From Streptomyces violaceusniger Tu 4113 (GTDB taxonomy: Bacteria > Actinomycetota > Actinomycetes > Streptomycetales > Streptomycetaceae), in contig NC_015957.1 in NCBI RefSeq assembly GCF_000147815.2, forward strand, positions 62,001 to 126,000: a DNA stretch of 64,000 nucleotides, written 5' to 3'. Position numbers and translations under genes: made by a program. Shown here one piece after another: positions 10,458 to 49,307 of the stretch; position 1 is the first letter of the stretch; each line of letters opens with the position of its first letter. The notes beneath the pieces are model-generated. The model was not told the origin of the DNA, ran no database searches, and saw nothing but the letters and a program-made list of their open reading frames with translations.

Positions 10458-10549
10458 GGGGCGCTTTCAGCCGGTGTCGACGGTCGGCCGTGCTCGGTCC
10501 CTCGTTCCTCGGGACCTGCGCGCGCTCCCTTTCGACACCGGCGCGCCCC
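10458..10549. repeat. Large structured intergenic element
   Basis: GGGGCGC (10458-10464) and GCCGGTGTCGA (10470-10480) pair in order with TCGACACCGGC (10532-10542) and GCGCCCC (10543-10549), leaving only a 5-base bulge. Inside, GGTCCC (10496-10501) pairs with GGGACC (10511-10516). The whole 92-bp element is palindromic and non-coding. It could be a terminator or a dispersed Streptomyces intergenic repeat. Confidence 0.65.
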
Positions 10550-10622
10550 TTCGGCTCGCCCCCGGCTATCGCTGGGAGGTGCCCCCGGCCGGAAGAACTC
10601 AGCGCCCCGAAGCGGTAGGTGC

Positions 10623-10647
10623 CCCCCGTCCGCATCGCGGACGGGGG
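10623..10647. terminator. 11-bp hairpin before GntR promoter
   Basis: CCCCCGTCCGC (10623-10633), loop ATC, GCGGACGGGGG (10637-10647). It lies about 190 bp after the E2 stop and just upstream of the GntR gene, insulating the two units. Confidence 0.75.
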
Positions 10648-10671
10648 ATGGGTGCGCATGCATCTTGTATC

Positions 10672-10688
10672 TATGATGTGCGCATCAT
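10672..10688 (+). promoter_or_regulatory. Putative -10 box and 16-bp palindrome on a start codon
   Basis: TATGAT (10672-10677) is a good -10 sequence. ATGATGTGCGCATCAT (10673-10688) is a palindrome with one non-pairing position per arm, and its right end includes the first two bases of the GntR start codon. No ribosome site precedes that ATG, so the mRNA may be leaderless. The palindrome is a natural autorepression site for the encoded GntR protein. Confidence 0.6.
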
Positions 10689-11346
10689 GAGTCCCGCCGA
10701 TACGGCCACCAAGCCGCCCCCTGCCGCCGAACGCGTCTACCACCACGTCAAACAAGCCGTCCTCGACCGCCGCTACGAGGGCGGCACACTGCTGAGCGAG
10801 GGCGAACTCGCGGACGCCGTCGGGGTCTCCCGTACGCCCGTCCGGGAGGCGCTGCTGCGCCTGGAGGCCGAGGGGCTGCTCAAGCTCTATCCGAAGAAGG
10901 GCGCCCTGGTGCTGCCCGTCTCCTCCCAGGAGATCGCGGACGTGGTCGAGACCCGGCTGCTGGTGGAGCAGCACGCGGTCGCCAAGGTCGTACCGGCCGG
11001 GCAGCAGCTCCTGGGGCGGCTCGAGGAGCTGCTGGAGGAGCAGAAGGTGCACGCGGCGGCCGGGGATCTGGCCGCCTTCGCGGCCGCCGACCGCTGCTTC
11101 CACGCGGCGATCGTCAGGGCGGCGGGAAACGCCATCCTGGCGCAGCTCTACGACCAGTTGAGGGACCGTCAGTTGCGGATGGGCGTGGCCACCATGCACG
11201 CCGAGCCCGGCCGCATCGCCAAGAACATCACCGAGCACACGGAGATCCTCCGGGCCCTGCGCGCCGGGGACGCCGGGTTCGCGTCCGGGCTGGTGCAGCG
11301 CCACATCAGTTGGGTGAACAACCTCGCCCGGGGTGAGGAGCGATGA
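10687..11346 (+). CDS. GntR-family regulator, FCD subgroup (FadR-like)
   Basis: This 219-residue protein has an N-terminal winged HTH (about 15-75) with SEGELADAVGVSRTPVREALLRLEAEGLL, the GntR signature. A helical FCD effector domain follows (VVETRLLVEQHAV, DRCFHAAIVRAAGN, EHTEILRALRAGD), with acidic and His residues that usually bind metal in this subgroup. The ligand is likely a small carboxylate. It overlaps the MFS gene by ATGA, so it probably controls that transporter and itself through the palindrome on its own start codon. The start at 10687 is supported by the HTH register and promoter spacing. Confidence 0.85.
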   Translation: MSPADTATKPPPAAERVYHHVKQAVLDRRYEGGTLLSEGELADAVGVSRTPVREALLRLEAEGLLKLYPKKGALVLPVSSQEIADVVETRLLVEQHAVAKVVPAGQQLLGRLEELLEEQKVHAAAGDLAAFAAADRCFHAAIVRAAGNAILAQLYDQLRDRQLRMGVATMHAEPGRIAKNITEHTEILRALRAGDAGFASGLVQRHISWVNNLARGEER

Positions 11347-12638
11347 CCTCGGCCCAGTTGCCCGGGGATCCGCCCGGCGGCCGTCGTGCCGTCGCCGTGT
11401 GGGGTCTGGGCGTCGCCGTCTACTTCGTCGCCATCACCTATCGCACCAGCCTCGGCGTCGCCGGTATCGACGCCGCCGAGCGCTTCCACATCAACGCCTC
11501 GGCGCTGTCGACCTTCTCCATCCTGCAGGTGCTGGTCTACGCCGGGATGCAGATACCGGTCGGGCTCATGGTCGACCGTCTCGGCACCCGTAAGGTGCTC
11601 ATGTTGGGCGTGGTGCTCTTCACCCTGGGGCAGTTCGGCTTCGCGTTCTCCCACTCCTACGCGATGGCGCTGGGCTCCCGGGCGCTGCTCGGCTGCGGTG
11701 ACGCGATGACGTTCATCAGCGTGCTGCGGCTCGGCTCGCGCTGGTTCCCGGCCCGCCGCGGGCCGCTCATCGCCCAGATCGCCGCGCTCTTCGGCATGGC
11801 GGGCAACCTGGTCTCCACGCTGGTGATCGCCCGGTCCCTGCACGGCGTCGGCTGGACCACGACCTTCGCGGGCAGCGCGCTCGGCGGCCTGGCCGTCTTC
11901 CTCCTGGTGCTGTTCTTCCTCAAGGACCACCCGGAGGGCTTCGAGCCCGCGCCCGCCACCCACCTGGGCGCCGACTACGTCCGCCGGCAGATCGCGGACG
12001 CCTGGCGCGAGCCCGGCACCCGGCTCGGCATGTGGGTGCACTTCACCACCCAGTTCCCGGCGATGGTCTTCCTGCTGCTGTGGGGGATGCCGTTCCTGGT
12101 CGAGGCGGAGGGGCTGTCCCAGGCGACCGCGGGTCAGCTCCTGACCCTCGTGGTGCTCTCCAACATGGCGGTCGGCCTGGTCTACGGGCAGGTCATCGCC
12201 CGGCACCACGCCGCCCGCGCCCCGCTGGCCCTCAGCACGGTCGGCGCCACCGCGCTGCTGTGGGGCACCATGCTGGTCTGGCCGTCCGCCCACGCGCCCA
12301 TGTGGCTGCTGGTGGTCCTGTGCGTGGTGCTCGGCGCCTGCGGGCCCGCGTCGATGATCGGCTTCGACTTCGCCCGGCCCGCCAATCCGCCCGAGCGGAT
12401 CGGCACCGCGTCGGGAATCGTCAACATGGGCGGCTTCACGGCGTCGATGACCACACTGCTGGCCGTCGGCGTGCTGCTGGACCTGACCGGCCAGAACTAC
12501 CGGATCGCGTTCGCCTCGGTGTTCGTGCTGCAGGCGCTCGGCATCAGCCAGATCCTGCGGCTGCGCGGCCGGGCGCACCGCCGGGAGCGCGAGCGCGTGG
12601 TCGCGAGCCGTGTCGAGGCCGTGCACGTACCGGCGTGA
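11343..12638 (+). CDS. Major facilitator superfamily transporter
   Basis: This 431-residue integral membrane protein has about 12 predicted helices. The MFS loop 2-3 motif is visible as GLMVDRLGTRKVLMLG, and helix 4 has SRALLGCGDAMTFISVLRL. A hydrophilic central loop follows helix 6 (FLKDHPEGFEPAP...). Its start ATGA overlaps the GntR stop (11343-11346), making a two-gene operon. Family resemblance is to anion/organic acid or nitrate-type MFS carriers, but the substrate is unknown; regulation by the coupled GntR protein suggests uptake or export of that regulator's ligand. Confidence 0.85.
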   Translation: MTSAQLPGDPPGGRRAVAVWGLGVAVYFVAITYRTSLGVAGIDAAERFHINASALSTFSILQVLVYAGMQIPVGLMVDRLGTRKVLMLGVVLFTLGQFGFAFSHSYAMALGSRALLGCGDAMTFISVLRLGSRWFPARRGPLIAQIAALFGMAGNLVSTLVIARSLHGVGWTTTFAGSALGGLAVFLLVLFFLKDHPEGFEPAPATHLGADYVRRQIADAWREPGTRLGMWVHFTTQFPAMVFLLLWGMPFLVEAEGLSQATAGQLLTLVVLSNMAVGLVYGQVIARHHAARAPLALSTVGATALLWGTMLVWPSAHAPMWLLVVLCVVLGACGPASMIGFDFARPANPPERIGTASGIVNMGGFTASMTTLLAVGVLLDLTGQNYRIAFASVFVLQALGISQILRLRGRAHRRERERVVASRVEAVHVPA

Positions 12639-12871
12639 CCCCCAGGGGCGTCACGGCGAGCTCCCCGGGGCGGCTCACGGCGTGACCCCCAGGGGGCTTA
12701 CGGCGTGATCCCAGGCGCTGTGCGCCCCGACCCTACGGGCGGCGTTACGGCGTGATCCCAGCGCTTGTACGGCTGACCCTGCGGGCGGCGCTACGGCGTG
12801 ATCCCAGGCGGCTGCGCGGCCCGACCCTCCGCGAGGCGCCAGGGCCCTCCGGGAGGCGTTACGGCGTGATC
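12632..12871. repeat. Degenerate repeats of a gene 3' end between convergent genes
   Basis: TTACGGCGTGATC occurs at 12698-12710, 12745-12757 and 12859-12871, with CTACGGCGTGATC at 12791-12803. Spacings are 47, 46 and 68 bp. The 12859 copy is the real 3' end of the isomerase gene, where TTA is its TAA stop read on the minus strand. Related ACGGCGTGACCCCCAGGGG units run from the MFS stop at 12636. The 220-bp gap is therefore almost entirely repeat-derived. Confidence 0.8.
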
Positions 12872-13683
12872 GCGAAGTGCCCGAGGATCGCCTCGGCGAG
12901 CTGCTGATCGCCCTCGATCTTCAGCCGCTCGGAGACCGCCTCGGGCCGCACCCGCCCACAGGCCAGCCGGACGTAGGTCTCCCAGTCCAGGGAGAGGGTG
13001 GCCGTCGGCCCGAGCGAGACACTGCCGTCGATGCTGCCCTGGCCGTCCGCGTCGACCCGGACCGTCCGCATGAACTCCAGCGGGCCGTTCACATCGAAGA
13101 CGACGGCCGACTGGGGCGCCGCGCCCGCGTCCTTGGCGACGACCTTCGGCAGCGCCGACAGCAGCAGGTCACGGGTGATCGTGGCGCCCGGCGAGTCCAG
13201 ATTGCCGGGCTTGTTCAGGGCCCGGCGCAGATCCTGCTCATGCACCCAGACGTCGAAGACCCGCTTCATCAGGGCCTCCCCCAGCGTGACCTCGGAGCCG
13301 CCGGGCCAGCGCACCATGGCGTCCGCGGCGCGCTTCTCGTTCCGCAACTGGCGGCCCCGCCGGATGACGGTGTACTCCAGGTCGGAGGTCATCTCGGGCG
13401 CGGTGTGACAGCGCCGGACGTCGACCTGGACCTCCATGTACCGCGACAGCTCGTTGGTGACGTGGAAAAGGTCGCGCGGCAGTGTGTGGATGGGGCGGGG
13501 GTCGCCGAGCATCTCGCATTCGAGTCCGATGACATGCGAGACGACGTCCCGCACCGACCACCCCGGGCACTCGGTGGCGAGGTTCCACTCGCGCTCCGCG
13601 AGCGGATTCACCAACTCCGATATCGCGTCGATGGAGTGCGTCCAGGCGTCGATGGAGGTCTGAAGGCTGGGATGGACGGTCAC
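12859..13683 (-). CDS. Mycothiol-dependent maleylpyruvate isomerase-family protein
   Basis: This 274-residue protein has the DinB-like N-terminal helical domain of the family: W14-H16, NLATECPGWSVRDVVSHVIGLE, and a later VFDVWVHEQDLRRAL. The His in VSHVIG and the E and H in VHEQD are in the places where metal ligands sit in these enzymes. A C-terminal SCP2-like domain follows (about 180-270). Mycothiol is the actinobacterial thiol cofactor of characterised members, but most paralogues have unknown substrates. It is divergently oriented to the thioredoxin-NHL gene and convergent with the MFS gene. Confidence 0.8.
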   Translation of the reverse strand: MTVHPSLQTSIDAWTHSIDAISELVNPLAEREWNLATECPGWSVRDVVSHVIGLECEMLGDPRPIHTLPRDLFHVTNELSRYMEVQVDVRRCHTAPEMTSDLEYTVIRRGRQLRNEKRAADAMVRWPGGSEVTLGEALMKRVFDVWVHEQDLRRALNKPGNLDSPGATITRDLLLSALPKVVAKDAGAAPQSAVVFDVNGPLEFMRTVRVDADGQGSIDGSVSLGPTATLSLDWETYVRLACGRVRPEAVSERLKIEGDQQLAEAILGHFAITP

Positions 13684-13927
13684 GGGACCCCTCGGGCGGT
13701 TGGTGCGCGGGCTGGGTGCTGGTGTGTGCGTTCAAGTTACGCTGCCCACGAGCGCGCGGGCAGTGCTTTCGGCTCTGATCGTAGGCCGGGATCGGCGGCT
13801 GGCGGCCTGCTCGCGATGGTAGTGTGCGCCCGCCCTCTCCTTATCTCCGGACATACCCCCGCACATCGGGCGAAAGCCATCGGGGGGCGGGGGAATGAGA
13901 CGGGTGGGGCTGCTGTTTCATGGGGAT

Positions 13928-15742
13928 ATGGCTCCACGTGCACGCGTCCGCGCCCCCGAACTGATCGGCCGGGGCGGCTGGCTCAATACCGGCGGCAACG
14001 ACCTCACCCTCACCGACCTGCGAGGGCGCATCGTCATCCTCGACTTCTGGACGTTCTGCTGTGTGAACTGTCTGCATGTCCTGGACGAACTGCGCGAGCT
14101 GGAGGAGAAGCACCGCGACACCGTGGTGATCGTCGGGGTGCACTCGCCGAAGTTCGTCCACGAGGCGGAGCACCAGGCGGTCGTGGACGCCGTGGAGCGC
14201 TACGAGGTGCACCACCCGGTCCTCGACGACCCCGAGCTAGCCACCTGGAAGCAGTACGCGGTACGGGCCTGGCCCACCCTCGTCGTCATCGACCCCGAGG
14301 GCTATGTGGTCGCCCAGCACGCGGGCGAGGGCCACGCACACGCCCTGGAGACCCTCGTGGGGCAGCTCGAGGCCGAGCACGCCGCCAAGGGCACCCTGCG
14401 GCGCGGCGACGGCCCGTACGTGCCCCCGGAGCCGGTCCCCACCGAGCTGCGCTTCCCCGGTAAGGCGCTGCTGCTGCCCGGCGGCACCTTCCTCGTCTCG
14501 GACACCACCCGCCATCAACTGGTGGAGCTCGCGGCGGACGGCGAGAGCGTGGTGCGGCGGATCGGCGCGGGCGAGCGCGGCCTTACGGATGGCACGGGCG
14601 AGCGGGCCCGCTTCAGCGAGCCCCAGGGGCTCGCCCTGCTCCCCGACGGCACCGTGGCCGTCGCCGACACCGTGAACCACGCACTGCGCCGCTTCGACCC
14701 GGCCACCGGCGAGGTCACCACGCTCGCCGGGACCGGCCGCCAGTGGTGGCAGGGGTCGCCCACCGAGGGGCCCGCCCGCGAGGTCGACCTGTCCTCCCCC
14801 TGGGACGTCGCCTGGTTCGCCGGCCGGCTGTGGATCGCCATGGCGGGTGTCCACCAGTTGTGGACCTACGACCCGGAGGCCCAGGCCGTACGGGCCGCCG
14901 CCGGGACCACCAACGAGGGTCTGGTCGACGGCCCCGCCGAGGAGGCGTGGTTCGCCCAGCCCTCCGGGCTCGCCGCCACCGAGGACCGGCTGTGGATCGC
15001 CGACTCCGAGACGTCCGCGCTGCGGTACGTCGAGCGCGACGGCGACGGCTTCGCCGTCCGTACGGCCGTCGGCACCGGGCTCTTCGACTTCGGCCACCGG
15101 GACGGCGCCGCCGAACAGGCGCTGCTCCAGCATCCGCTGGGCGTCACCGCGCTGCCCGACGGCTCGGTGGCGATCTCGGACACCTACAACCACGCGCTGC
15201 GCCGCTACGACCCGGCCACCGGCGAGGTCTCCACGCTCGCCACGGATCTGCGCGAGCCCTCCGGCGCGGTCCTGGCCGACGGGGACGTCGTCGTGGTGGA
15301 GTCCGCCCGGCACCGGCTGACCCGGCTGCGGCTGCCGGAGGAGGCCGTAAGGGTCGACGCGGTGGCCCACCGCACCCAGCGGGCCGCGACCGACATCGCC
15401 CCGGGGACACTGCGGCTGGACGTGGTCTTCCAGGCGCCCGAGGGGCAGAAGCTGGACACCCGCTACGGCCCCTCCACCCGGCTGCTGGTCAGCTCCACCC
15501 CGCCCGAGCTGCTGGCCGAAGGAGACGGCGCGGGCACGGATCTTAACCGTGAGCTGGTCCTTACGGAGGGCATGACCGAGGGCGTGCTGCATGTCTCGGC
15601 CATGGCCGCCTCCTGTGACGACGACCCGTCCAACGAGTACCCGGCCTGCCATGTGCACCAGCAGGACTGGGGCGTCCCGGTGCGGATCACCGAGGGCGGC
15701 GCGACCCGGCTGCCGCTGGTGCTCTCCGGGATGGACGGCTGA
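13928..15742 (+). CDS. Thioredoxin-fold / NHL beta-propeller protein
   Basis: This 604-residue protein begins with a TlpA-like thioredoxin domain (about 10-140) whose CxxC site is WTFCCVNCLHVLDEL. A beta-propeller of NHL repeats follows (about 170-480), each with a pattern like GLALLPDGTVAVADTVNHALRRFD. A C-terminal beta domain (about 500-600) resembles disulfide-isomerase-type DsbD N-terminal folds. This matches NHLRC2-type proteins. No signal peptide is evident, so it is probably cytosolic and may act in thiol redox. ATG at 13928 is chosen by homology; ATG at 13895, with GGGGGA before it, would add 11 residues. Confidence 0.8.
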   Translation: MAPRARVRAPELIGRGGWLNTGGNDLTLTDLRGRIVILDFWTFCCVNCLHVLDELRELEEKHRDTVVIVGVHSPKFVHEAEHQAVVDAVERYEVHHPVLDDPELATWKQYAVRAWPTLVVIDPEGYVVAQHAGEGHAHALETLVGQLEAEHAAKGTLRRGDGPYVPPEPVPTELRFPGKALLLPGGTFLVSDTTRHQLVELAADGESVVRRIGAGERGLTDGTGERARFSEPQGLALLPDGTVAVADTVNHALRRFDPATGEVTTLAGTGRQWWQGSPTEGPAREVDLSSPWDVAWFAGRLWIAMAGVHQLWTYDPEAQAVRAAAGTTNEGLVDGPAEEAWFAQPSGLAATEDRLWIADSETSALRYVERDGDGFAVRTAVGTGLFDFGHRDGAAEQALLQHPLGVTALPDGSVAISDTYNHALRRYDPATGEVSTLATDLREPSGAVLADGDVVVVESARHRLTRLRLPEEAVRVDAVAHRTQRAATDIAPGTLRLDVVFQAPEGQKLDTRYGPSTRLLVSSTPPELLAEGDGAGTDLNRELVLTEGMTEGVLHVSAMAASCDDDPSNEYPACHVHQQDWGVPVRITEGGATRLPLVLSGMDG

Positions 15743-27279: not shown

Positions 27280-29892
27280 TCAGTGTTGCCTGGCGCGACG
27301 CTTCCGGGTCATGAACGCGACTGCCGTGCCCGCACCGGCCAGCAGGGCACTGAGGGAGATGATCTCCAGCAGGCCGGACGTGCCCGTGTTGGCCAGCGAG
27401 CCACCGCCTCCGCCAGTCCCCGAGCCTCCGCTGGTCCCCGAGCCTCCGCCAGTCCCCGAGCCTCCGCCTGTCCCGGAGCCTCCGCCGGACTGGGGGCCTG
27501 GCTCGTTGGGCGGCTCAGAGGTCGGCGGCTCGGACGACGACGGAGTGGGCGTCGGCGTAGGAGTCGGCGATTTCTTGGGGATGTACACGCCGGCGTCAAT
27601 CGTGTGATCGACCTCTCCCGGCTTGTCCGGCGCCGTGACAGGTGCGCGTCCGTTGCACAGCCGCCCGGTCGTCGGCGGGGTCACATTCGAGTCATGTGCC
27701 CGGTTGTCACCGGCCCGCGGGAGCGTGAACCGCAGCTTGGTGGCCGGCGGCTCAGTCGGCACCTCGCTGGTGTCCGCGGTACACACATCGAACTGCACCG
27801 TGTACTTCGCACCCGGCTTGAGCTCGTAGGCGGCGCCGACTCCGCCGAAGTAGTACTCGCCGGCGGCATCGGTCTTGGTCGTGGCGACCTGCTTGCCGTC
27901 GGCGTCCAACAGGTTGATCGTCGCGTCCGGCAGCGGCACTTCGGCGGGACCCTCGGGATCCTGGATCCCATTGTGGTCGCCGTCGAACCACACCCGGTTG
28001 CCGATCTGGATCGGCGCGTTCGCCGCCTCGTACGCGATATCGCCGAGCCCACCGGCCTTACCGAACCCATTGTCGGTCGAATTCACGAACTGGTACGCGT
28101 TGGCGGAATGGTTGTTACCGGGACCCTGGCCGGTCTGGATGTCGTAGTAACCGGTCCCGTCGGTGCTGTAGTTGTCGGTCGGGTCCATCTGCGTGCTGAC
28201 GACCCATTGCTGCTGCGGAATGTAGGCGACCGCCCCTTGGGAGGCTTCGTTGTGCACTCCTTGGACCTGCTCCGGGGCGCCGTTGTTCCGAACGTAGTCG
28301 CCCGGGAAGTATTCGACGACGCCGCTGTTCTGGTTGCCGTCGGTGGCGGGGTCGGCGTGGTTGGGGCAGTTCCCGGTGCCTTCCCACGAGTATCCACCGT
28401 CGGGATTGGCGCAGGCCATGTTGATGTCACCACCGGACATGCCGCTTTCCGGGGTGTCGTTGCCCGGCCGAGGGTCCAGCCCGCCCCCACTGACCACGTC
28501 CATGAACCGGTCGCGGAAACCGAGGATCATCGAACCGTCACGGGCGAAGGCCAGGGTGGAGAGCTCCGGCTGCGGATCGACGAGGAGAGTTCCTCCGTTT
28601 ACTTTGAATTTGTCCCAAGTTGCCAGGTTGGTGTTCCACGGGTTCCAGTGATTTGCCTGGTCATTCCCCGCGGCACCGGCATAGACGGGACCGCGCTCGG
28701 CGGTGAGCGGCTGGGTCAGCACTGTGTCGAACCGCTCGCCGTCGTAGGCGTAGACGACGGTCTTCAGGTCCTCGCGCTTCTGCGTGCTCTCCGCGCTGCA
28801 CACGCCACCGACGTAGAGCTTGTTGTCGTGGGTGGACAGCGCGAACGGCCGCCAGTCGCCGGCCACCGCGCAGCCCGGGTCCGGGATGCGCACCGTCGCC
28901 TTGGGCGCGGACGCGGTGGTCCCGGTGGCGTCGAAGCTGACCAGGGACCGGGTCCGCAGGTTCACCGCGTACAGCGTCGAGCCGTCCTCCGACAGGGCCA
29001 GGCCGCCGATGCTCTCCTTGCCCGCCGCATCGGTGAACCCGGCGTCTTTGTTCATGTTGCCGGTGTCGTGCGGCGTCACCGCGGCGCCCGGCACCTTCGC
29101 GAACAGGGTCGTCGCGCCCTCACCGTTGGTCGGCACGGTGTAGATCGCGTCACCGCCGTCCGGCCCGTACGGGGTGTACCGCCGGGCGAACTCGCCCTGG
29201 AACAGTCGCTTCCGGTTCTTGTCGTAGGCCAGTGCGAACGTGGTGCCCACCTGGTCCTGCGTGTTGAGCGCGGTCGGGCACGCCGTCTGATCAGGACACG
29301 TACCTCGTTTGTCCGTCCCGAACGCCACCAGTGCCCGGGTGTCTTTCCCGCCGGCCGCGTTGTGGATGGGTACGAAATAGCGCGAGTCCGGCAGTGCGTA
29401 GTCGGCTGGGTTCCAGACCCCGGTCATGACCGAGTCGTCCTTGCCGTCCGACACGTCCACGAACGTCGTGAAGCTGTCGAAGTGGTTTTCCGCCGTCGAG
29501 GCCGGCGCCGCCTGAAGATACTTGTTGTACGGCGCCGGGATGGTGACGTCGACGCGGTACTGGCCGCCGGTCAGTTCGGTCGACTTCGAGACCACCACCT
29601 TTCCGGTGGCATCCGTGGTGCCGGTGACCCGATGGCCGGCAGGGTCGGTTACCCGAACCTTCATGCCCCGCTGCGGCACGTCCATGGCCGCGTTGATCAC
29701 GCCGGTGCCGAAGAAATCCCGCAGGACCTGAACCGTCAGAGTTCCGTCGCCAGTCGAAGCGGTGGCCGTCCCGGCCGTCGCGCCCATGGCGCTGCCCAAC
29801 AGTACGAAAGTGCAGAGGCCCACTCGTGCCAGTGGCCCCGTACGCTTCCCGGCTGTCCGGCGTAACCTGCTACACACTCTTCGCACAGCCAT
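27280..29892 (-). CDS. Cell-wall-anchored (LAXTG) surface protein with SdrD-like domain
   Basis: This 870-residue protein has a signal peptide (RVGLCTFVLLGSAMGATAGTATAS) and a beta-rich N-terminal domain. A large central domain reads like a beta-propeller or collagen-binding region (ALSEDGSTLYAVNLRTRSLVSFD, LSTLAFARDGSMILGF). An SdrD B-like repeat follows (IGNRVWFDGDHNGIQDPEGPAEVPLPDATINLLDADGK). Then come a Pro/Ser/Thr stalk, GGGSGT repeats and the sorting signal LANTG, a hydrophobic helix and RKRRARQH. LAXTG is the class E sortase motif used in Streptomyces; no sortase gene is nearby. ATG 29892 has GGGGAG. Codon 10 is TTA (29863-29865), inside the signal region. Confidence 0.85.
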   Translation of the reverse strand: MAVRRVCSRLRRTAGKRTGPLARVGLCTFVLLGSAMGATAGTATASTGDGTLTVQVLRDFFGTGVINAAMDVPQRGMKVRVTDPAGHRVTGTTDATGKVVVSKSTELTGGQYRVDVTIPAPYNKYLQAAPASTAENHFDSFTTFVDVSDGKDDSVMTGVWNPADYALPDSRYFVPIHNAAGGKDTRALVAFGTDKRGTCPDQTACPTALNTQDQVGTTFALAYDKNRKRLFQGEFARRYTPYGPDGGDAIYTVPTNGEGATTLFAKVPGAAVTPHDTGNMNKDAGFTDAAGKESIGGLALSEDGSTLYAVNLRTRSLVSFDATGTTASAPKATVRIPDPGCAVAGDWRPFALSTHDNKLYVGGVCSAESTQKREDLKTVVYAYDGERFDTVLTQPLTAERGPVYAGAAGNDQANHWNPWNTNLATWDKFKVNGGTLLVDPQPELSTLAFARDGSMILGFRDRFMDVVSGGGLDPRPGNDTPESGMSGGDINMACANPDGGYSWEGTGNCPNHADPATDGNQNSGVVEYFPGDYVRNNGAPEQVQGVHNEASQGAVAYIPQQQWVVSTQMDPTDNYSTDGTGYYDIQTGQGPGNNHSANAYQFVNSTDNGFGKAGGLGDIAYEAANAPIQIGNRVWFDGDHNGIQDPEGPAEVPLPDATINLLDADGKQVATTKTDAAGEYYFGGVGAAYELKPGAKYTVQFDVCTADTSEVPTEPPATKLRFTLPRAGDNRAHDSNVTPPTTGRLCNGRAPVTAPDKPGEVDHTIDAGVYIPKKSPTPTPTPTPSSSEPPTSEPPNEPGPQSGGGSGTGGGSGTGGGSGTSGGSGTGGGGGSLANTGTSGLLEIISLSALLAGAGTAVAFMTRKRRARQH

Positions 29893-29979
29893 CACTCTCC
29901 CCTCGTGATGTGAACCGACCACCCGCTTCGAGCCGTACATCCGCTTCCCGGCCCCCGGGTGACACGTCGGCCATGAAAA

Positions 29980-30005
29980 GGGCCCACCGCTGTTTCGGTG
30001 GGCCC
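29980..30005 (-). terminator. Hairpin followed by T4 on the minus strand
   Basis: GGGCCCACCG and CGGTGGGCCC (29980-29989 and 29996-30005) form a 10-bp perfect stem. On the minus strand it is followed by TTTTC, so it would stop right-to-left transcripts about 90 bp before the LAXTG gene. It may be an attenuator in that gene's leader. The gene-free stretch 29893-30193 also holds the potential pseudoknot at 30046-30080. Confidence 0.7.
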
Positions 30006-30045
30006 GGTCGTTCTTGGTCGTCCTGGCGGATGGAGCGAATTCAGG

Positions 30046-30080
30046 GACTCGGGAGTGCCTTTCCCAGGCGAGTCGCACTC
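30046..30080. ncRNA. Potential H-type pseudoknot, candidate RNA leader element
   Basis: GACTCG (30046-30051) pairs with CGAGTC (30069-30074), and GAGTGC (30053-30058) pairs with GCACTC (30075-30080). The two 6-bp stems cross. An alternative small hairpin CGAGT/ACTCG at 30069-30081 could compete. It lies 40-100 bp upstream (minus strand) of the hairpin terminator before the LAXTG gene. No known riboswitch consensus was recognised. Confidence 0.35.
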
Positions 30081-30193
30081 GTCCTCGCCTTCCCACACGG
30101 AAAGAGAACAAGAGTCTGAATAGTGATCCTGAACCGCCTCACCAGCAGCGATACTGTAGCGGGTGGACGCCAAGATCGGGGGGAGAGTAGGGA

Positions 30194-31021
30194 ATGAATA
30201 AGCAGAACGTGTTAGCAATGCACCGTGTGCGGAGTCTGAAAATCAGACACGTTCTCTCGCGGCGTGCGGCCGGCCGGCGCCGATGGCTGCGGCCACGCTG
30301 GGTGGCAGTCGTCATCGGTGGTGTGGCCGTCGCGGTGACCACGTTCCTGGTCGCCGACAGCGGCTCCGGCCCTACCGGTCCGAAGGCGTTGACCTCGGAT
30401 CAGGCGAGCCGTCTGGCGGTGACACGGTTCCTCAACTACCAGGCGGGCGGGCGCGCCCTGACGATCAACGTGCCGAACACCGCTGGTGGGCTGACCATCA
30501 CCGGATCCATCGACTACCGCGGCAAGATCGGTTACGGCGTGGTGCACGGCACCGGGCGCGATACGTCCAGCGACGGGCTGATCGAGTGGACGGCCACCAC
30601 CGTGTTCGTCCACCCGATGGCGAAGGCCCCGGCCAAGGCGCCCGCACGGCCGCCGGGTTCGGGCTGGTACAGCCGTCCGCTGCAGAGGTACGGCAGTTCG
30701 CTGGACAGTTCGCTGGCCATCGCGCTGAAGCTCGGTAGCGACCGGCCGGACAATGCCGAACTCCTGCCGCAGAACGGTGCCGCCTGGGTGGGACAGGACC
30801 GGTTGGACGGCCATCAGGTGGACATCATGACCGGGCCGAGCGCCCGTGCGACGTCCGGTCCGGCGGGGGCGGGTGCCGTGCGCTACTGGATCGGCTCGGA
30901 CGGCACCATGTACCGGGTTCGCGTCGGCGTGGCGTCCGCATCGGAGCCGGTGGTCATCGATTTCGACACCCAGAAGTACGTTCCGGTCCGGCCGGTACCC
31001 GGAGCCACCCCGACGCGGTAG
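30194..31021 (+). CDS. Membrane-anchored exported protein, unknown function
   Basis: This 275-residue protein has a basic N-terminus, one membrane helix (VAVVIGGVAVAVTTFLVA, about 37-54) and an exported domain. LTSDQASRLAVTRFLNYQAGGRALTINVP, GSIDYRGKIGYGVVHG and AVRYWIGSDGTMYRVRVG suggest a LolA/LppX-like half-barrel fold, by pattern only. GGGGGAGAG precedes ATG 30194 by 6 bases. With that start, codon 7 is TTA (30212-30214); the next ATG (30218) has no ribosome site. It is divergent from the LAXTG gene and convergent with the beta-helix gene. A cell-envelope role is likely. Confidence 0.65.
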   Translation: MNKQNVLAMHRVRSLKIRHVLSRRAAGRRRWLRPRWVAVVIGGVAVAVTTFLVADSGSGPTGPKALTSDQASRLAVTRFLNYQAGGRALTINVPNTAGGLTITGSIDYRGKIGYGVVHGTGRDTSSDGLIEWTATTVFVHPMAKAPAKAPARPPGSGWYSRPLQRYGSSLDSSLAIALKLGSDRPDNAELLPQNGAAWVGQDRLDGHQVDIMTGPSARATSGPAGAGAVRYWIGSDGTMYRVRVGVASASEPVVIDFDTQKYVPVRPVPGATPTR

Positions 31022-31028
31022 CCGCCGC

Positions 31029-32372
31029 TCAGGACGTCCGCACCCGCGCGGCTTCGGCGAGCAGTGACGTCGGCGGCAGCCGGACGCCCGCCGTGTCCGG
31101 CAGCGCCGGAACGGCCGGAACGGCGGTGGCGCCCGCGGTCCTGGCGTTCGGGAACTGCGGCTGTCGCTTGGGTGCCGCCACGTCGGTGAACGGGATTCCG
31201 CCAGGTGCCGTCGGCTTCGCCCAGGTGCCGGACGGCGAGGGCGACCGGGCGGGACGCGGGCAGGACGCGGTTGTCGCGAGCCGGGCGGGCACCGTCGTTC
31301 GCAGCTCATTGCCGCGCAGGCAGTTGCCCCGTCCCTTCGTGGCGGTGGGGAACGTCCAGCCGACGTCGACGCTGTTGGCGGCGAAGGTGTTGTCCAGGAT
31401 CCGGTTGCCGTCCGGCTTGATGTCGGCGGTCGCGGTGATCACCAGCCCGGCGTTGCTGTTGCCGGCGACTCGGTTGCGGATGAACTGGTTGTCGGTGCCG
31501 CCGTCGACGCCGATGCCGATGCCCCACCCGCCGTCGGCCTGTTCGGGGGTGGCCGCCTGCTGGTTGGCCGCGATCAGGTTGCCCGCGATGACGGCGTCCT
31601 GCTGCGGGAGCAGCTTCTCCTGGTGGTCGGAGTTGGTGGTGAGCCCGACCCGGTTGCCGACCAGACGGTTGCCGACCACGTACATGTCGCCACTGGCATT
31701 GGTGCCTTCGTATCCGACCGCGTTGAGTTCGGCGATGTTGTCCCGCACCACGATGCGACAGGGCTTGCACTGTCCGGCATAGATCCCCGAGTCGGCCGAG
31801 CCCGAGGTGTACGAGTGCTCGATGACACCGTTTTGTGCGGAGAACGCGTAGATGCCGTACAGCCCGTTGCGGGTCGCGGTCACGTGGGAGACCAGGAATG
31901 ACTTCAGGAAGGTGACGGGTTCGTCGCCGGTGTCGTAGCCGCCGGACTGCCCCGGCATTCCGGCGGCCGCCTTCGCCGAGCCGGTGACCAGGACCCCGTT
32001 CTGGGTGTTGTTCTCCACGGTCAGGTTCTCCACGGCCACCCCGGGGGCGGTGACGACGACGCCGTTCGGCTGCCGCAACCGCCCGTCGATGACGACCTTG
32101 TCCCGAGACGCGCCGCGAAGAGTGATGCGAGCCGTCGATATCTTCACCGACTCGTGGTACTTGCCCGGTGCGACCAGCACAAGATCGCCGGGCCGAGCCA
32201 GAGAAACCGCGGCCGAGATCGTCGGGGCGTCGGCCGGCACGTTGATCGTCACATGCGCACCGGACGGTCGTCGGCCCTGATCCGATCCGTCATCGTCCGC
32301 GCCGCAGCCGACCATGACGGGTGTCAGTGTGCCGAGTAACGCGGCCATCAGGCGCAGACGGAGACGAGGCAT
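31029..32372 (-). CDS. Right-handed parallel beta-helix lipoprotein
   Basis: This 447-residue protein has a signal peptide ending in a lipobox-like MVGC. The repeats are typical of a right-handed beta-helix (NosD/pectate-lyase-like): LVAPGKYHESVKISTARITLRGASRDKVVIDG, NGVVVTAPGVAVENLTVENN, then NGLYGIYAFSAQNGVIEHSYTSGSADSGIYAG. No clear polysaccharide lyase active site was seen, so it may bind or modify a surface glycan. Codon 12 is TTA (32337-32339), inside the signal peptide. It is divergent from the DyP peroxidase gene with only about 67 bp between the starts. Confidence 0.75.
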   Translation of the reverse strand: MPRLRLRLMAALLGTLTPVMVGCGADDDGSDQGRRPSGAHVTINVPADAPTISAAVSLARPGDLVLVAPGKYHESVKISTARITLRGASRDKVVIDGRLRQPNGVVVTAPGVAVENLTVENNTQNGVLVTGSAKAAAGMPGQSGGYDTGDEPVTFLKSFLVSHVTATRNGLYGIYAFSAQNGVIEHSYTSGSADSGIYAGQCKPCRIVVRDNIAELNAVGYEGTNASGDMYVVGNRLVGNRVGLTTNSDHQEKLLPQQDAVIAGNLIAANQQAATPEQADGGWGIGIGVDGGTDNQFIRNRVAGNSNAGLVITATADIKPDGNRILDNTFAANSVDVGWTFPTATKGRGNCLRGNELRTTVPARLATTASCPRPARSPSPSGTWAKPTAPGGIPFTDVAAPKRQPQFPNARTAGATAVPAVPALPDTAGVRLPPTSLLAEAARVRTS

Positions 32373-32439: not shown

Positions 32440-33591
32440 GTGCGCCAAGCCGACTCCCGCCCGTCACGCCGCACGTTTCTCGGTGCCACCGGCACCGTGA
32501 CCGCCGTCGGCCTCTCCGCCGGGTGCCAATCGCGTTCCGACCCGCCGGACCGGGACGATGCCCCCGCGCCGACCCCGCCGGTGTCACCAACGGGCCGGTA
32601 CCAGGCGGGCATCACGCTTCCACAACCAGCCCAGCGGAACCTGCTGGCCGTGGTGGCCGACCTCGTTGACGCCGTGCCTGTCCGTCCGTTGCTGGCCGAA
32701 CTCGGCGAGGCAGTCCGGACACTCACCGCGGGGATCGACACACGGTTGATGGGCCTGCCGCCGGGCGATCTGACCGTGACGATCGGGGTGGGCCCCCGGC
32801 TGGTGCGCACGGTCGATCCTGCCCTGCCCGGCGCGAAGGACCTCCCACGGTTCTCCCGCGAACAGATCGCCTCCCGGGCACGCGGCGGCGACCTGCTGAT
32901 ACAGATCTGCGCCGGCGACGCCTTGGTGGTACCGGTCGTGGCTGCCGCGCTTCTGGAGCAGGCCGGTGACCGGATACAGGAACGCTGGCGGCAGTCCGGA
33001 GTCCGTGGTGCGAACGTGCCGGTGGATCGGGGCCGTGCCGCGCCACGAAACCTCTTCGGTTTCGTCGACGGCATCGTGGGCCCCCACACGAGGGCCGAAC
33101 AGGAACGCGACCTGTGGTTGGCCGGGCCGGCTCCGGTCGCCGGCGGCACCCTCGCCGTACTACGACGCATGGAACTCGATCTGCCGCGGTTCGCCAAGCT
33201 GTCCGTCCCCGAACAGGAAGCGGTCTTCGGCCGGCGCCGAACCACTGGCGTGCCCCTCTCCGGTGGCTCCATCGCCTCGGGCCCGGACCTCGGCGCGAAA
33301 ACGCCGGACGGACGCTACCTCGTCCCGGCGGAGGCCCATGCCCGCAGAGCACACGCCACCGCGGTCGGCGTCGGCCTCATGCTCCGTCGCTCCTACAGCA
33401 CCGACGGACCCGCCCCCGGCCTGCTCTTCATGAGCTTCCAGAACGACATACGGACATTCACCAACACCCTCACCCGTATGGACAATTCCGATGCCCTGCT
33501 GGAATACACGACCACGACCGCCAGTGCGACCTTTCTGATACTTCCCGGTTTCGACGAACAACACCCGCTTGGTTCCCGGCTCTTCCGCTGA
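32440..33591 (+). CDS. Tat-exported DyP-type peroxidase
   Basis: This 383-residue protein has a twin-arginine signal (PSRRTFLGATGTVTAVGLSAGC), possibly also a lipobox. The DyP body has the heme-region motif GFVDGIVGP (GxxDG catalytic Asp). The C-terminal part has EAHARRAHATAVGVGLMLRRSYSTDG with the proximal His and distal Arg, and GLLFMSFQNDI near the end. DyP enzymes oxidise dyes, lignin-like phenolics or heme-related substrates with peroxide. The neighbouring genes do not form an EfeUOB iron system. GTG at 32440 has no good ribosome site; a leaderless start is possible. Confidence 0.82.
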   Translation: MRQADSRPSRRTFLGATGTVTAVGLSAGCQSRSDPPDRDDAPAPTPPVSPTGRYQAGITLPQPAQRNLLAVVADLVDAVPVRPLLAELGEAVRTLTAGIDTRLMGLPPGDLTVTIGVGPRLVRTVDPALPGAKDLPRFSREQIASRARGGDLLIQICAGDALVVPVVAAALLEQAGDRIQERWRQSGVRGANVPVDRGRAAPRNLFGFVDGIVGPHTRAEQERDLWLAGPAPVAGGTLAVLRRMELDLPRFAKLSVPEQEAVFGRRRTTGVPLSGGSIASGPDLGAKTPDGRYLVPAEAHARRAHATAVGVGLMLRRSYSTDGPAPGLLFMSFQNDIRTFTNTLTRMDNSDALLEYTTTTASATFLILPGFDEQHPLGSRLFR

Positions 33592-48200: not shown

Positions 48201-49307
48201 TCAGCCCTGTGGCCCGTACAGGTCCAGCTCCACCAGCAGCGCCCGGTGGTCGGTGTGCGGCAGCTCCAGGAAGCGGGCCGTGCGCGGCCGCAGCGCCCGG
48301 CTGGCCAGCACATGGTCGATCTGCGCCCCCAGCACCGGGGCCGTGGCGCTCGGCCAGCTCGGCGTGCGGGAGACTCCGGTGGCCCGTGCGCTGTCCCGCA
48401 GCCCGGTGTCCAGGACGGCCCGGAAGGCGGCGTGGTCCTGGGTGGCGTTGAAGTCGCCCGCGATCAGGGTGGGTTCCTCGCCCCGCCCGGCGGCGTAGGA
48501 CCGCAGCCGCCCCAGCTCGGTGCGCCAGACGTCCAACTGGCCGGGCATCGGCGGCATGGGATGCGCGACCTGCAGCCGCAGCCGCTGTCCGGCGATCCGG
48601 ACGACCGCCCCCGGCATCCGCAGCGTCCCGCGCACCCCTTCCTCCCGGGTCAGCGGGTGGCGGCTGAGGATCGCCGAGCCCGCGGCGGGGCTGTCGCCGA
48701 GGGCGATGCTCCGGTACGGGTAGGCCGTGCGGACGGCGGCCGTCTCCAGCGCCTCGGCGCACTCCGTGTCGCACTCCTGGACCGCGACCAGGTCCGGCCG
48801 CTCCCGGCGCAGCGCGGTCAGCAGTCCGTCCCTGGCCTGGCCGAATTCGAGGTTCGCGGTCATCACCCGCAGCCGGGCGAGGACCGGTCCGTGCGGCTCG
48901 GGCGGGGTGCCGCCGTCGTACGGCTGGATGAACCATCCGGTGGCCGCGGCTGCCGCCAGCGCCCAGCCGCACCCCAGTGGCCAGCGGGCGGCCGTGCCGA
49001 GCAGCAGCCCGAGCGCCGCCGGGACCAGCAGCCAGGGCAGAAAGGCCAGTAGCTGCGGCATGGGGGTGATGCCGTCGATGTCCGTGGCCCGGCATAGCAC
49101 CACCGCGCTGACCAGGGCCAGCGGCACCATCGCGGACCAGGCCGCCGTCCGCCGGGCCCGTCCATCGGGGAGCCGGAGCAGCCGGGCGACGGCGCCCCGG
49201 GTGCCCCGGGGGCCGCGCGGGGCGCCGGACGGGCGGCCGGGGCCGGTGCCTTGGTCCTCCGCGACTGTCGTCTCCACGCTGGGCCTCTCGATCGGGGCGG
49301 GGCGCAC
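48201..49307 (-). CDS. Endonuclease/exonuclease/phosphatase-family membrane protein
   Basis: This 368-residue protein has three N-terminal membrane helices (about 57-75, 83-103, 108-125) and then an EEP domain facing outside. The EEP motifs are RVMTANLEFGQ, LVAVQECDTE with metal Glu, IAGDFNATQDHAAF and the closing LPHTDHRALLVELDL with catalytic His. Members of this layout include exported nucleases and phospholipid phosphodiesterases; the substrate here is unknown. GTG 49307 has AGGAGAG upstream. Confidence 0.82.
   Translation of the reverse strand: MRPAPIERPSVETTVAEDQGTGPGRPSGAPRGPRGTRGAVARLLRLPDGRARRTAAWSAMVPLALVSAVVLCRATDIDGITPMPQLLAFLPWLLVPAALGLLLGTAARWPLGCGWALAAAAATGWFIQPYDGGTPPEPHGPVLARLRVMTANLEFGQARDGLLTALRRERPDLVAVQECDTECAEALETAAVRTAYPYRSIALGDSPAAGSAILSRHPLTREEGVRGTLRMPGAVVRIAGQRLRLQVAHPMPPMPGQLDVWRTELGRLRSYAAGRGEEPTLIAGDFNATQDHAAFRAVLDTGLRDSARATGVSRTPSWPSATAPVLGAQIDHVLASRALRPRTARFLELPHTDHRALLVELDLYGPQG

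Follow-up and report, generated by a model that had tools for sequence, protein, structure and literature searches.

Do three neighbouring envelope genes, each carrying the rare leucine codon TTA near its start, form a developmentally timed unit? The question is raised by a stretch of 64,000 nucleotides (the window) of the 11.1-Mb genome of Streptomyces violaceusniger Tu 4113 (NC_015957.1, positions 62,001 to 126,000), which contains genes for an LAXTG surface protein (g1), a membrane-anchored protein (g2) and a beta-helix lipoprotein (g3), next to a gene for a DyP-type peroxidase. UUA is read by the bldA tRNA, which is reported to accumulate late in growth. The original prediction, made from the window, took the three TTA codons as a translation gate lying at the same early place in each gene. 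Their positions and their number, one per gene, were borne out, yet "same early place" proved a loose description, as codons 10, 7 and 12 are not homologous and a bias of TTA to gene starts in Streptomyces was already known from passages of PMC4255298 and PMC2635970. Comparison with orthologues points elsewhere: selection probably keeps at least one UUA in the signal-peptide stretch of g1, and perhaps in that of g3, while leaving its site free, and g1 would be the bldA-gated, late surface protein of a four-gene module.

A scan of a genome collection with g3 gave 79 orthologous loci. TTA occurs within codons 2-40 in 68 of the 71 Streptomycetaceae g1 orthologues, always at codons 3-28, and is missing there from loci L020, L028 and L143. 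None of the 2990 later leucine codons of these genes is TTA, against 5.1 expected from a first background sample of the window's genome (P 0.006) and 3.9 expected from a larger one (P about 0.02). The site itself varies, with TTA counted at codons 3 (19 times), 5 (1), 9 (4), 10 (13), 11 (10), 12 (1), 13 (1), 15 (9), 18 (1), 24 (20), 26 (2) and 28 (14). Outside the Streptomycetaceae, an early TTA is found in 4 of 20 g1 orthologues and a later one in 5 of 20. Fifteen extra Streptomycetaceae copies from outside the first set, 13 from a genus draw based on g2 and two from plasmid records, include 14 with an early TTA; 13 new g1 rows were duplicates of earlier loci, recognised by their identical ends. 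The gene was absent, fragmentary or off the contig in six of the 79 loci (L010, L011, L029, L034, L054 and L062), and two rows were dropped (L074, where g1 is broken into two pieces, and L159). In L034 and L159 the other module genes are present, and g1 is missing or matched at its C-terminal end only.

In a quick tree built from the protein sequences of the g1 body (91 rows; weak support for 25 of 88 inner branches), the site of the TTA, hand-aligned between N-terminal classes, changes at least 45 times; the state "early TTA present" changes three times in the 71 Streptomycetaceae rows and seven times in all 91. Within the clade of the window, 13 of 15 g1 genes have TTA at codon 10 only and two, L006 and L014, have it at codon 26 only. 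L006 has TTG and L014 GCA at codon 10, and the two are placed apart on the tree, on moderately supported branches. In L015 a second copy of g1 reads CTA at codon 10 and TTA at codon 26; codon 26 is thus TTA in each of the three clade copies whose codon 10 is not. L015 is from S. sparsogenes, in which two g1 copies stand in tandem (positions 10483-14698 of that locus), one with TTA at codon 10 and the other with TTA at codon 26. Judged from these comparisons, it is as if evolution kept a translation gate near the start of g1 irrespective of the exact codon. The original prediction had named orthologues without TTA at the window's positions as evidence against it, and most g1 orthologues do lack TTA at codon 10; they carry it elsewhere in the signal peptide, and the idea of a selected early TTA is therefore strengthened.

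Whether early TTAs are retained beyond independent gain and loss was assessed by shuffling and simulation. When alignment columns were shuffled within each N-terminal class, rows without TTA were fewer than expected in the class of the window's clade (0 against 1.7, P 0.01) and in the MNR class (3 against 6.1, P 0.05). An independent-site gain/loss simulation of 50 rows, representing two homologous N-terminal classes that were chosen after the outcome of a simulation of all 71 rows, gave 22 TTA-less rows against 3 observed (P 0.005), or 10.5 against 3 when matched for total TTA number (P 0.02). That first, all-row simulation gave no signal (mean 3.0, observed 3); its model was judged unsuitable because one site, P3, is confined to a single signal-peptide class with its own N-terminus. 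The null outcome and the later choice of rows nonetheless count against selection on g1, as do several other points. The MPL class gave a weak result (0 against 0.8 expected, P 0.33), sites were aligned by hand across three N-terminal classes, the starts of four g1 genes were assigned manually (GTG in L018, L030, L147 and L158), and the per-row tests overstate significance, the orthologues being related. Early TTA is a general bias in Streptomyces, half of the Streptomyces g3 rows have no early TTA, and the window's own DyP gene has no TTA. Some TTA genes, moreover, are expressed without bldA, according to passages of PMC4932002.

The remaining counterpoints concern codon use. Over the first 40 codons of g1, TTA is raised 12-fold relative to other signal peptides of the window's genome, and CCA (4.5-fold), ATA (3.6), ACA (3.2), TCT (3.2), AGA (2.8), CTA (2.6) and TTG (2.3) are raised as well, so part of the g1 effect may be a general trend of 5' ends. 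In g3, TTA (5.7-fold) is not the most raised codon (CCT 11.3, TCT 5.7, CTT 5.4), and in g2, CTA (10.2-fold) nearly equals TTA (11.2-fold). Because other codons match or nearly match TTA in these two genes, TTA specificity is seen for g1 alone. The early leucine codons of g1 comprise 95 TTA versus 7 CTA of 454, and in g1 of 40 other Streptomyces TTA/(TTA+TTG) is 0.67 versus 0.04 for CTA/(CTA+CTG). In g1, then, a general tilt to A/T-ending codons is topped by a far stronger effect specific to TTA. Codon use that is relaxed or A/T-biased at 5' ends, owing to weak mRNA structure near the start or to AT-rich horizontally acquired DNA, could by itself yield TTA by chance, and would be in keeping with the larger number of A/T-ending codons at 5' ends, with the codon use of g3 and g2, and with a module that is patchy and probably mobile. 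We nevertheless consider this quite improbable as the explanation for g1, where TTA so exceeds the next codon, recurs at codons 24-28, far from the start, stands at codon 26 in the three clade copies that do not have it at codon 10 and does not occur in the body of the gene.

The patterns in g3 and g2 differ from that in g1. An early TTA (within the first 25 codons) is found in 30 of 60 Streptomyces g3 rows, at codon 4 in 22, at codon 12 in five and elsewhere in three, and g3 appears to be a weaker, less TTA-specific version of the g1 pattern. The neighbours of codon 4 show conservation as well (CCT CGA TTA GCT CTT CGC), which weakens the case for a selected codon in g3, and because of this conservation a DNA-level cause for its TTA at codon 4 stays conceivable. 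In g2, TTA stands at codon 7 in all 16 members of the window's clade, where codons 6, 8, 9 and 12 vary, and at other codons in 6 of 40 rows from other Streptomyces. In Saccharopolyspora, Kutzneria, Actinokineospora and several Streptomyces, inspection by eye found TTAGCGT, TTACAGT or TTAACGT 8 nucleotides before a GTG start of g2, and no good start was seen upstream of that element. Loci with TTAGCGT or a close variant at this distance include L017, L027, L040, L059 and L076. Outside the window's clade the g2 motif looks like the -10 element of a leaderless gene, and for that reason g2 was ruled out there as an independent TTA gate. The motif suggests that in violaceusniger-like members a former -10 element has turned into codons 7-8. 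Rows without an assignable g2 start (L004, L029 and L069) were dropped, L004 being included in the comparison of 16 clade members.

That the TTA triplets in general are DNA elements, such as parts of promoters or operators, and not selected codons is a reading to which we give very little weight. It draws on the g2 triplet before the GTG start and on the conserved stretch at codon 4 of g3. A fixed element is disfavoured for g1 because the site there moves by up to 25 codons, and in g2 of the window's clade the start lies upstream of the TTA, a GGGGGAG-like putative ribosome-binding site precedes it in most of the 16 members, and the TTA is constant among varying codons. Taken together, the orthologue comparison indicates retention of TTA beyond chance for g1; in g2 the TTA is constant within one clade, and the pattern in g3 is not clear. 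The DyP gene follows another pattern: TTA is present in 37 of 76 Streptomycetaceae rows and never in the first 40 codons. Of 44 such codons, 34 fall at codons 86-89 or 164-171, sites that apparently match those in Saccharopolyspora (84 and 164) and Amycolatopsis taiwanensis (84).

The three codons of the window carry less weight by themselves. Each TTA is in frame and 3' of the start codon, the starts being judged from the sequence; by eye, GGGGAGAGTG-ATG is a plausible start for g1, GGGGGGAG followed by ATG for g2, and GATGAGGCC-ATG for g3. From the window alone, g2 could also start past its TTA, at ATG codon 9 or GTG codon 12. Codon 1 is an ATG or a GTG throughout the 16 clade members, whereas three of them have no ATG at codon 9 and seven no GTG at codon 12. 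A first background sample of 984 kb of the window's genome, the window included, had an early TTA (codons 2-40) in 18 of 679 other called genes, and g1-g2-g3 was the only run of more than one adjacent early-TTA gene. For 9500 genes, an assumed number, about 0.18 adjacent triples would be expected at a rate of 18/679 and about 2.4 at the rate of signal-peptide-like genes, 7/111. Among 14 violaceusniger-like rows with g1, an early TTA is found in g1 and in g2 of all 14, and in g3 only of the window, L013 and L016. The triple coincidence was therefore ruled out as proof, with 0.18-2.4 expected per genome and the triple present in 3 of 14 clade rows.

Because early TTA is commoner in exported genes and the triple occurs in so few clade members, the window's TTAs are indecisive: the window by itself is compatible with chance, and the g1 orthologue pattern is what exceeds it. 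The predicted envelope module with early TTA thus stands as regards its conserved neighbourhood and g1, and the three genes are not its unit, given the rarity of the full trio, the apparent promoter origin of the g2 codon, the divided g3 rows and the DyP gene as a fourth member. An enrichment of early TTA, for which the original prediction had proposed a genome-wide test, was found among exported genes; the trio alone does not go beyond chance.

That enrichment comes from a larger background of 1.784 Mb of the window's genome with 1300 called genes, g1-g3 excluded. Genes and signal peptides were called by simple in-house rules, not standard programs; an upstream start was retained if it had a ribosome-binding site and a signal-peptide-like N-terminus, a rule under which the window's g1 begins one codon too soon, at the GTG preceding its ATG. 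The first gene calls reached a coding density of 0.70-0.72, and genes were therefore under-called. An early TTA (codons 2-40) was present in 29 of the 1300 genes, and TTA made up 0.62% of early versus 0.13% of later leucine codons. Exported genes had an early TTA in 10 of 168 cases versus 18 of 1080 for genes without a signal peptide (P 0.002), and polytopic membrane genes in 1 of 52. The TTA share of early leucine codons was 1.50% in exported genes versus 0.47%; the CTA share showed no such difference (0.82% versus 0.79%).

Two secreted families, labelled by eye, were followed in their relatives, with "early" taken as 12 codons before to 40 after the aligned start, so that a few of the early TTAs may precede the start. 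LPMO-like genes (L085 14839-15507 and relatives L181-L209) had an early TTA in 15 of 29 and a later one in 1 of 29; GH-like genes (L116 10478-11518 and relatives L210-L239) had an early TTA, at many different codons, in 11 of 30 and a later one in none of 30. Both families were picked for an early TTA in the window's genome, and the counts include that member and its paralogues and are biased upward, so only the contrast between early and late is usable. Two further control families, c114 (early TTA in 3 of 7) and c118 (in 1 of 3), had too few members to be useful.

These data bear on a further alternative, in which a slow TTA in the signal peptide acts as a pause that aids targeting or folding, with no developmental switch. 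The concentration of early TTA in exported genes agrees with it, as do the LPMO-like and GH-like families with their varying early sites and almost no later ones. CTA, also a rare codon, is however not raised in exported genes and makes up 7 of 454 early leucine codons in g1, and g1 outside the Streptomycetaceae is also exported, yet seldom has an early TTA. We regard this export-kinetic explanation as unlikely.

Under the preferred reading, a selected UUA with a free site in the g1 signal peptide, the ribosome would pause or abort within the first 30 or so codons of g1 until the bldA tRNA is available, so that the surface protein would appear only late or in the course of development. With the UUA this early, translation would halt while nothing yet protrudes from the ribosome, and wasteful synthesis of a large wall protein would be curtailed. 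We infer from the sequences a bldA dependence and timing of the module and an oxidative or glycan-related role in the envelope. The ribosome exit tunnel holds about 30-40 residues. A more speculative extension, which we put forward tentatively, is that the UUA must come so early ("UUA-before-exit") that the waiting ribosome keeps the whole nascent chain within the tunnel. No half-made signal peptide would then reach the signal recognition particle or the Sec channel, and the exact codon would be free within roughly the first 30 codons, which would explain the wandering site. Both the g1 TTAs at codons 3-28 and the enrichment of early TTA in exported genes would fit such a limit.

The genome has one match for a tRNA-Leu(UAA) gene, a single pattern match that ARAGORN also calls tRNA-Leu (taa). 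Passages of PMC2000904 describe the bldA tRNA as the only S. coelicolor tRNA that translates UUA efficiently, and passages of PMC4932002 report no other tRNA gene able to read UUA, by correct or wobble pairing, in the Streptomyces genomes studied, and cite signs of UUA misreading in bldA mutants.

The four genes form, as far as their distribution indicates, an accessory and mostly Streptomyces envelope module. In the 79 loci, which come from Streptomyces, Actinacidiphila, Amycolatopsis, Kutzneria, Saccharopolyspora, Actinokineospora, Saccharothrix, Catenulispora and Actinoallomurus, DyP was found in 79, g2 in 77 and g1, before later exclusions, in 73. They are the only orthogroups common to most of the fetched stretches (69-79 loci each; the next orthogroup has 14). 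The window's g3 is 91-93% identical to its closest relatives, in S. violaceusniger and similar species. Relative to g2, g1 is divergent in 48 and co-directional in 25 of 73 loci, and the neighbourhood stays together; the 25 loci with flipped g1 fall between L018 and L079. A genus draw (E-values up to 1e-60) found g2 in 29 of 295 Streptomyces genomes, the window's own included. The whole module is also on a megaplasmid of S. clavuligerus (all four genes occur in strain ATCC 27064), and g1, with none of the other three genes in the fetched stretch, is on one of Streptantibioticus cattleyicolor. It is this patchy carriage, together with the megaplasmid copies, that makes the module accessory. All 70 Streptomycetaceae copies with DyP, g3 and g1 have TTA in at least one of those three genes, 57 of them in more than one; for other genera the number with at least one is 13 of 20.

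Near-universal TTA recalls the adpA/bldA switch, where Table 2 of PMC4255298 lists TTA in 14 of 14 Streptomyces orthologues of adpA. In adpA the codon separates the segments that encode two domains of a regulator, whereas g1 encodes a surface protein belonging to an accessory module, with a TTA that shifts position within the signal peptide. The amf, SCO0381-0383 and celB/celS2 clusters of the same table, the last listed under cellulose utilisation, likewise have TTA scattered over neighbours with a probable shared role; unlike them, the module has one gene, g1, that almost always keeps its TTA, within the first 28 codons. Passages of PMC10327506 describe 18 orthogroups in which at least half of 213 species have a TTA, at whatever position, and 11 fixed codons; for most, conservation was low. 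These orthogroups resemble g1 in keeping TTA in most species that have the gene; g1 differs in being accessory and would fall among those with TTA at any position, one site taking over from another. The module's peroxidase, with its leader resembling that of a lipoprotein exported by twin-arginine translocation (Tat), recalls the DtpA-GlxA system, in which a Tat-exported DyP-type peroxidase is linked to Streptomyces morphogenesis (PMC4736821), but its neighbours are a beta-helix lipoprotein, a membrane-anchored protein and an LAXTG protein. A TTA codon is also said to co-regulate an endoglucanase and cellulose-binding protein pair in S. halstedii (Garda 1997, listed among the references of PMC9820598).

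A regulatory codon that a gene retains while its position drifts escapes screens that score conservation one position at a time. Should retention be better judged at the level of the gene, more surface and secreted proteins probably belong to the bldA regulon than are now listed, and g1 would be well suited to finding out whether export is gated by UUA. The long-known tendency of TTA to lie near gene starts in Streptomyces could also have its explanation here, at least where exported proteins are concerned. Fuglsang reportedly studied the intragenic position of UUA. Among the matches listed for the open-licence literature, by titles and the starts of abstracts, we found no report of TTA site turnover with gene-level retention in connection with signal peptides, secretion, sortases or codon position.

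The features of the window are collected in the table below.

Table. Module genes of the window and the features discussed, with positions counted from the first nucleotide of the window
Feature	Position	Strand	Remarks
g1	27280..29892	-	870-amino-acid LAXTG (class E type) wall-anchored surface protein
LANTG sorting motif of g1	27382..27396	-	From the translation; followed by a hydrophobic stretch and the tail RKRRARQH
SdrD_B-like domain of g1	27589..28008	-	Residues 629-768; PF17210, E-value 1.5e-17
Sole TTA of g1	29863..29865	-	Codon 10, n-region of signal peptide
Likely ribosome-binding site of g2	30178..30185	+	GGGGGGAG; alike in most of 16 clade members
g2	30194..31021	+	275 amino acids; N-terminal membrane anchor by eye
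Sole TTA of g2	30212..30214	+	Codon 7
g3	31029..32372	-	447-amino-acid NosD-like right-handed beta-helix lipoprotein; lipobox Cys 23 by eye
Sole TTA of g3	32337..32339	-	Codon 12, h-region of lipoprotein signal peptide
DyP-type peroxidase gene	32440..33591	+	Fourth module gene; Tat lipoprotein-like leader SRRTFLG...GLSAGC; divergent from g3

The g1 protein comprises, in order, a signal peptide, a strand-rich region, the SdrD_B-like domain, a PT-rich stretch and the LANTG sorting signal, and has the layout of a class E sortase substrate, with signal peptide, C-terminal LAXTG, hydrophobic stretch and basic tail. LAXTG is present in 10 of 11 g1 sequences compared, the window's among them, and L080 has LPFTG. 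The predicted structure of g1 has a mean pLDDT of 45.6, with a sole confident stretch at about residues 291-400. Many of its best 50 Foldseek matches are proteins that we take to be propellers; because their TM-scores are low, a possible beta-propeller in the strand-rich region of the model is a lead only.

For g2, Pfam gave no family (a CU044_5270-family match was weak and below the cut-off), and its predicted structure was discarded as too poor (mean pLDDT 36.6). The g3 protein scored 57.7 bits with the NCBIfam NosD model TIGR04247, whose cut-off is 300, and a sequence search of the PDB with it gave no match; it is best described as a NosD-like beta-helix lipoprotein, short of assignment as NosD itself. 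In the DyP protein both Dyp domains score above their curated cut-offs (PF20628 100.7 bits, PF04261 54.8 bits), as does NCBIfam TIGR01413, the deferrochelatase equivalog TIGR01412 falling below its own, and DtpA is among its PDB relatives. Elsewhere in the window, at 48826-48911, ARAGORN calls a tRNA-Asp whose anticodon, ATC, is unusual; the call may be false or the gene a relic.

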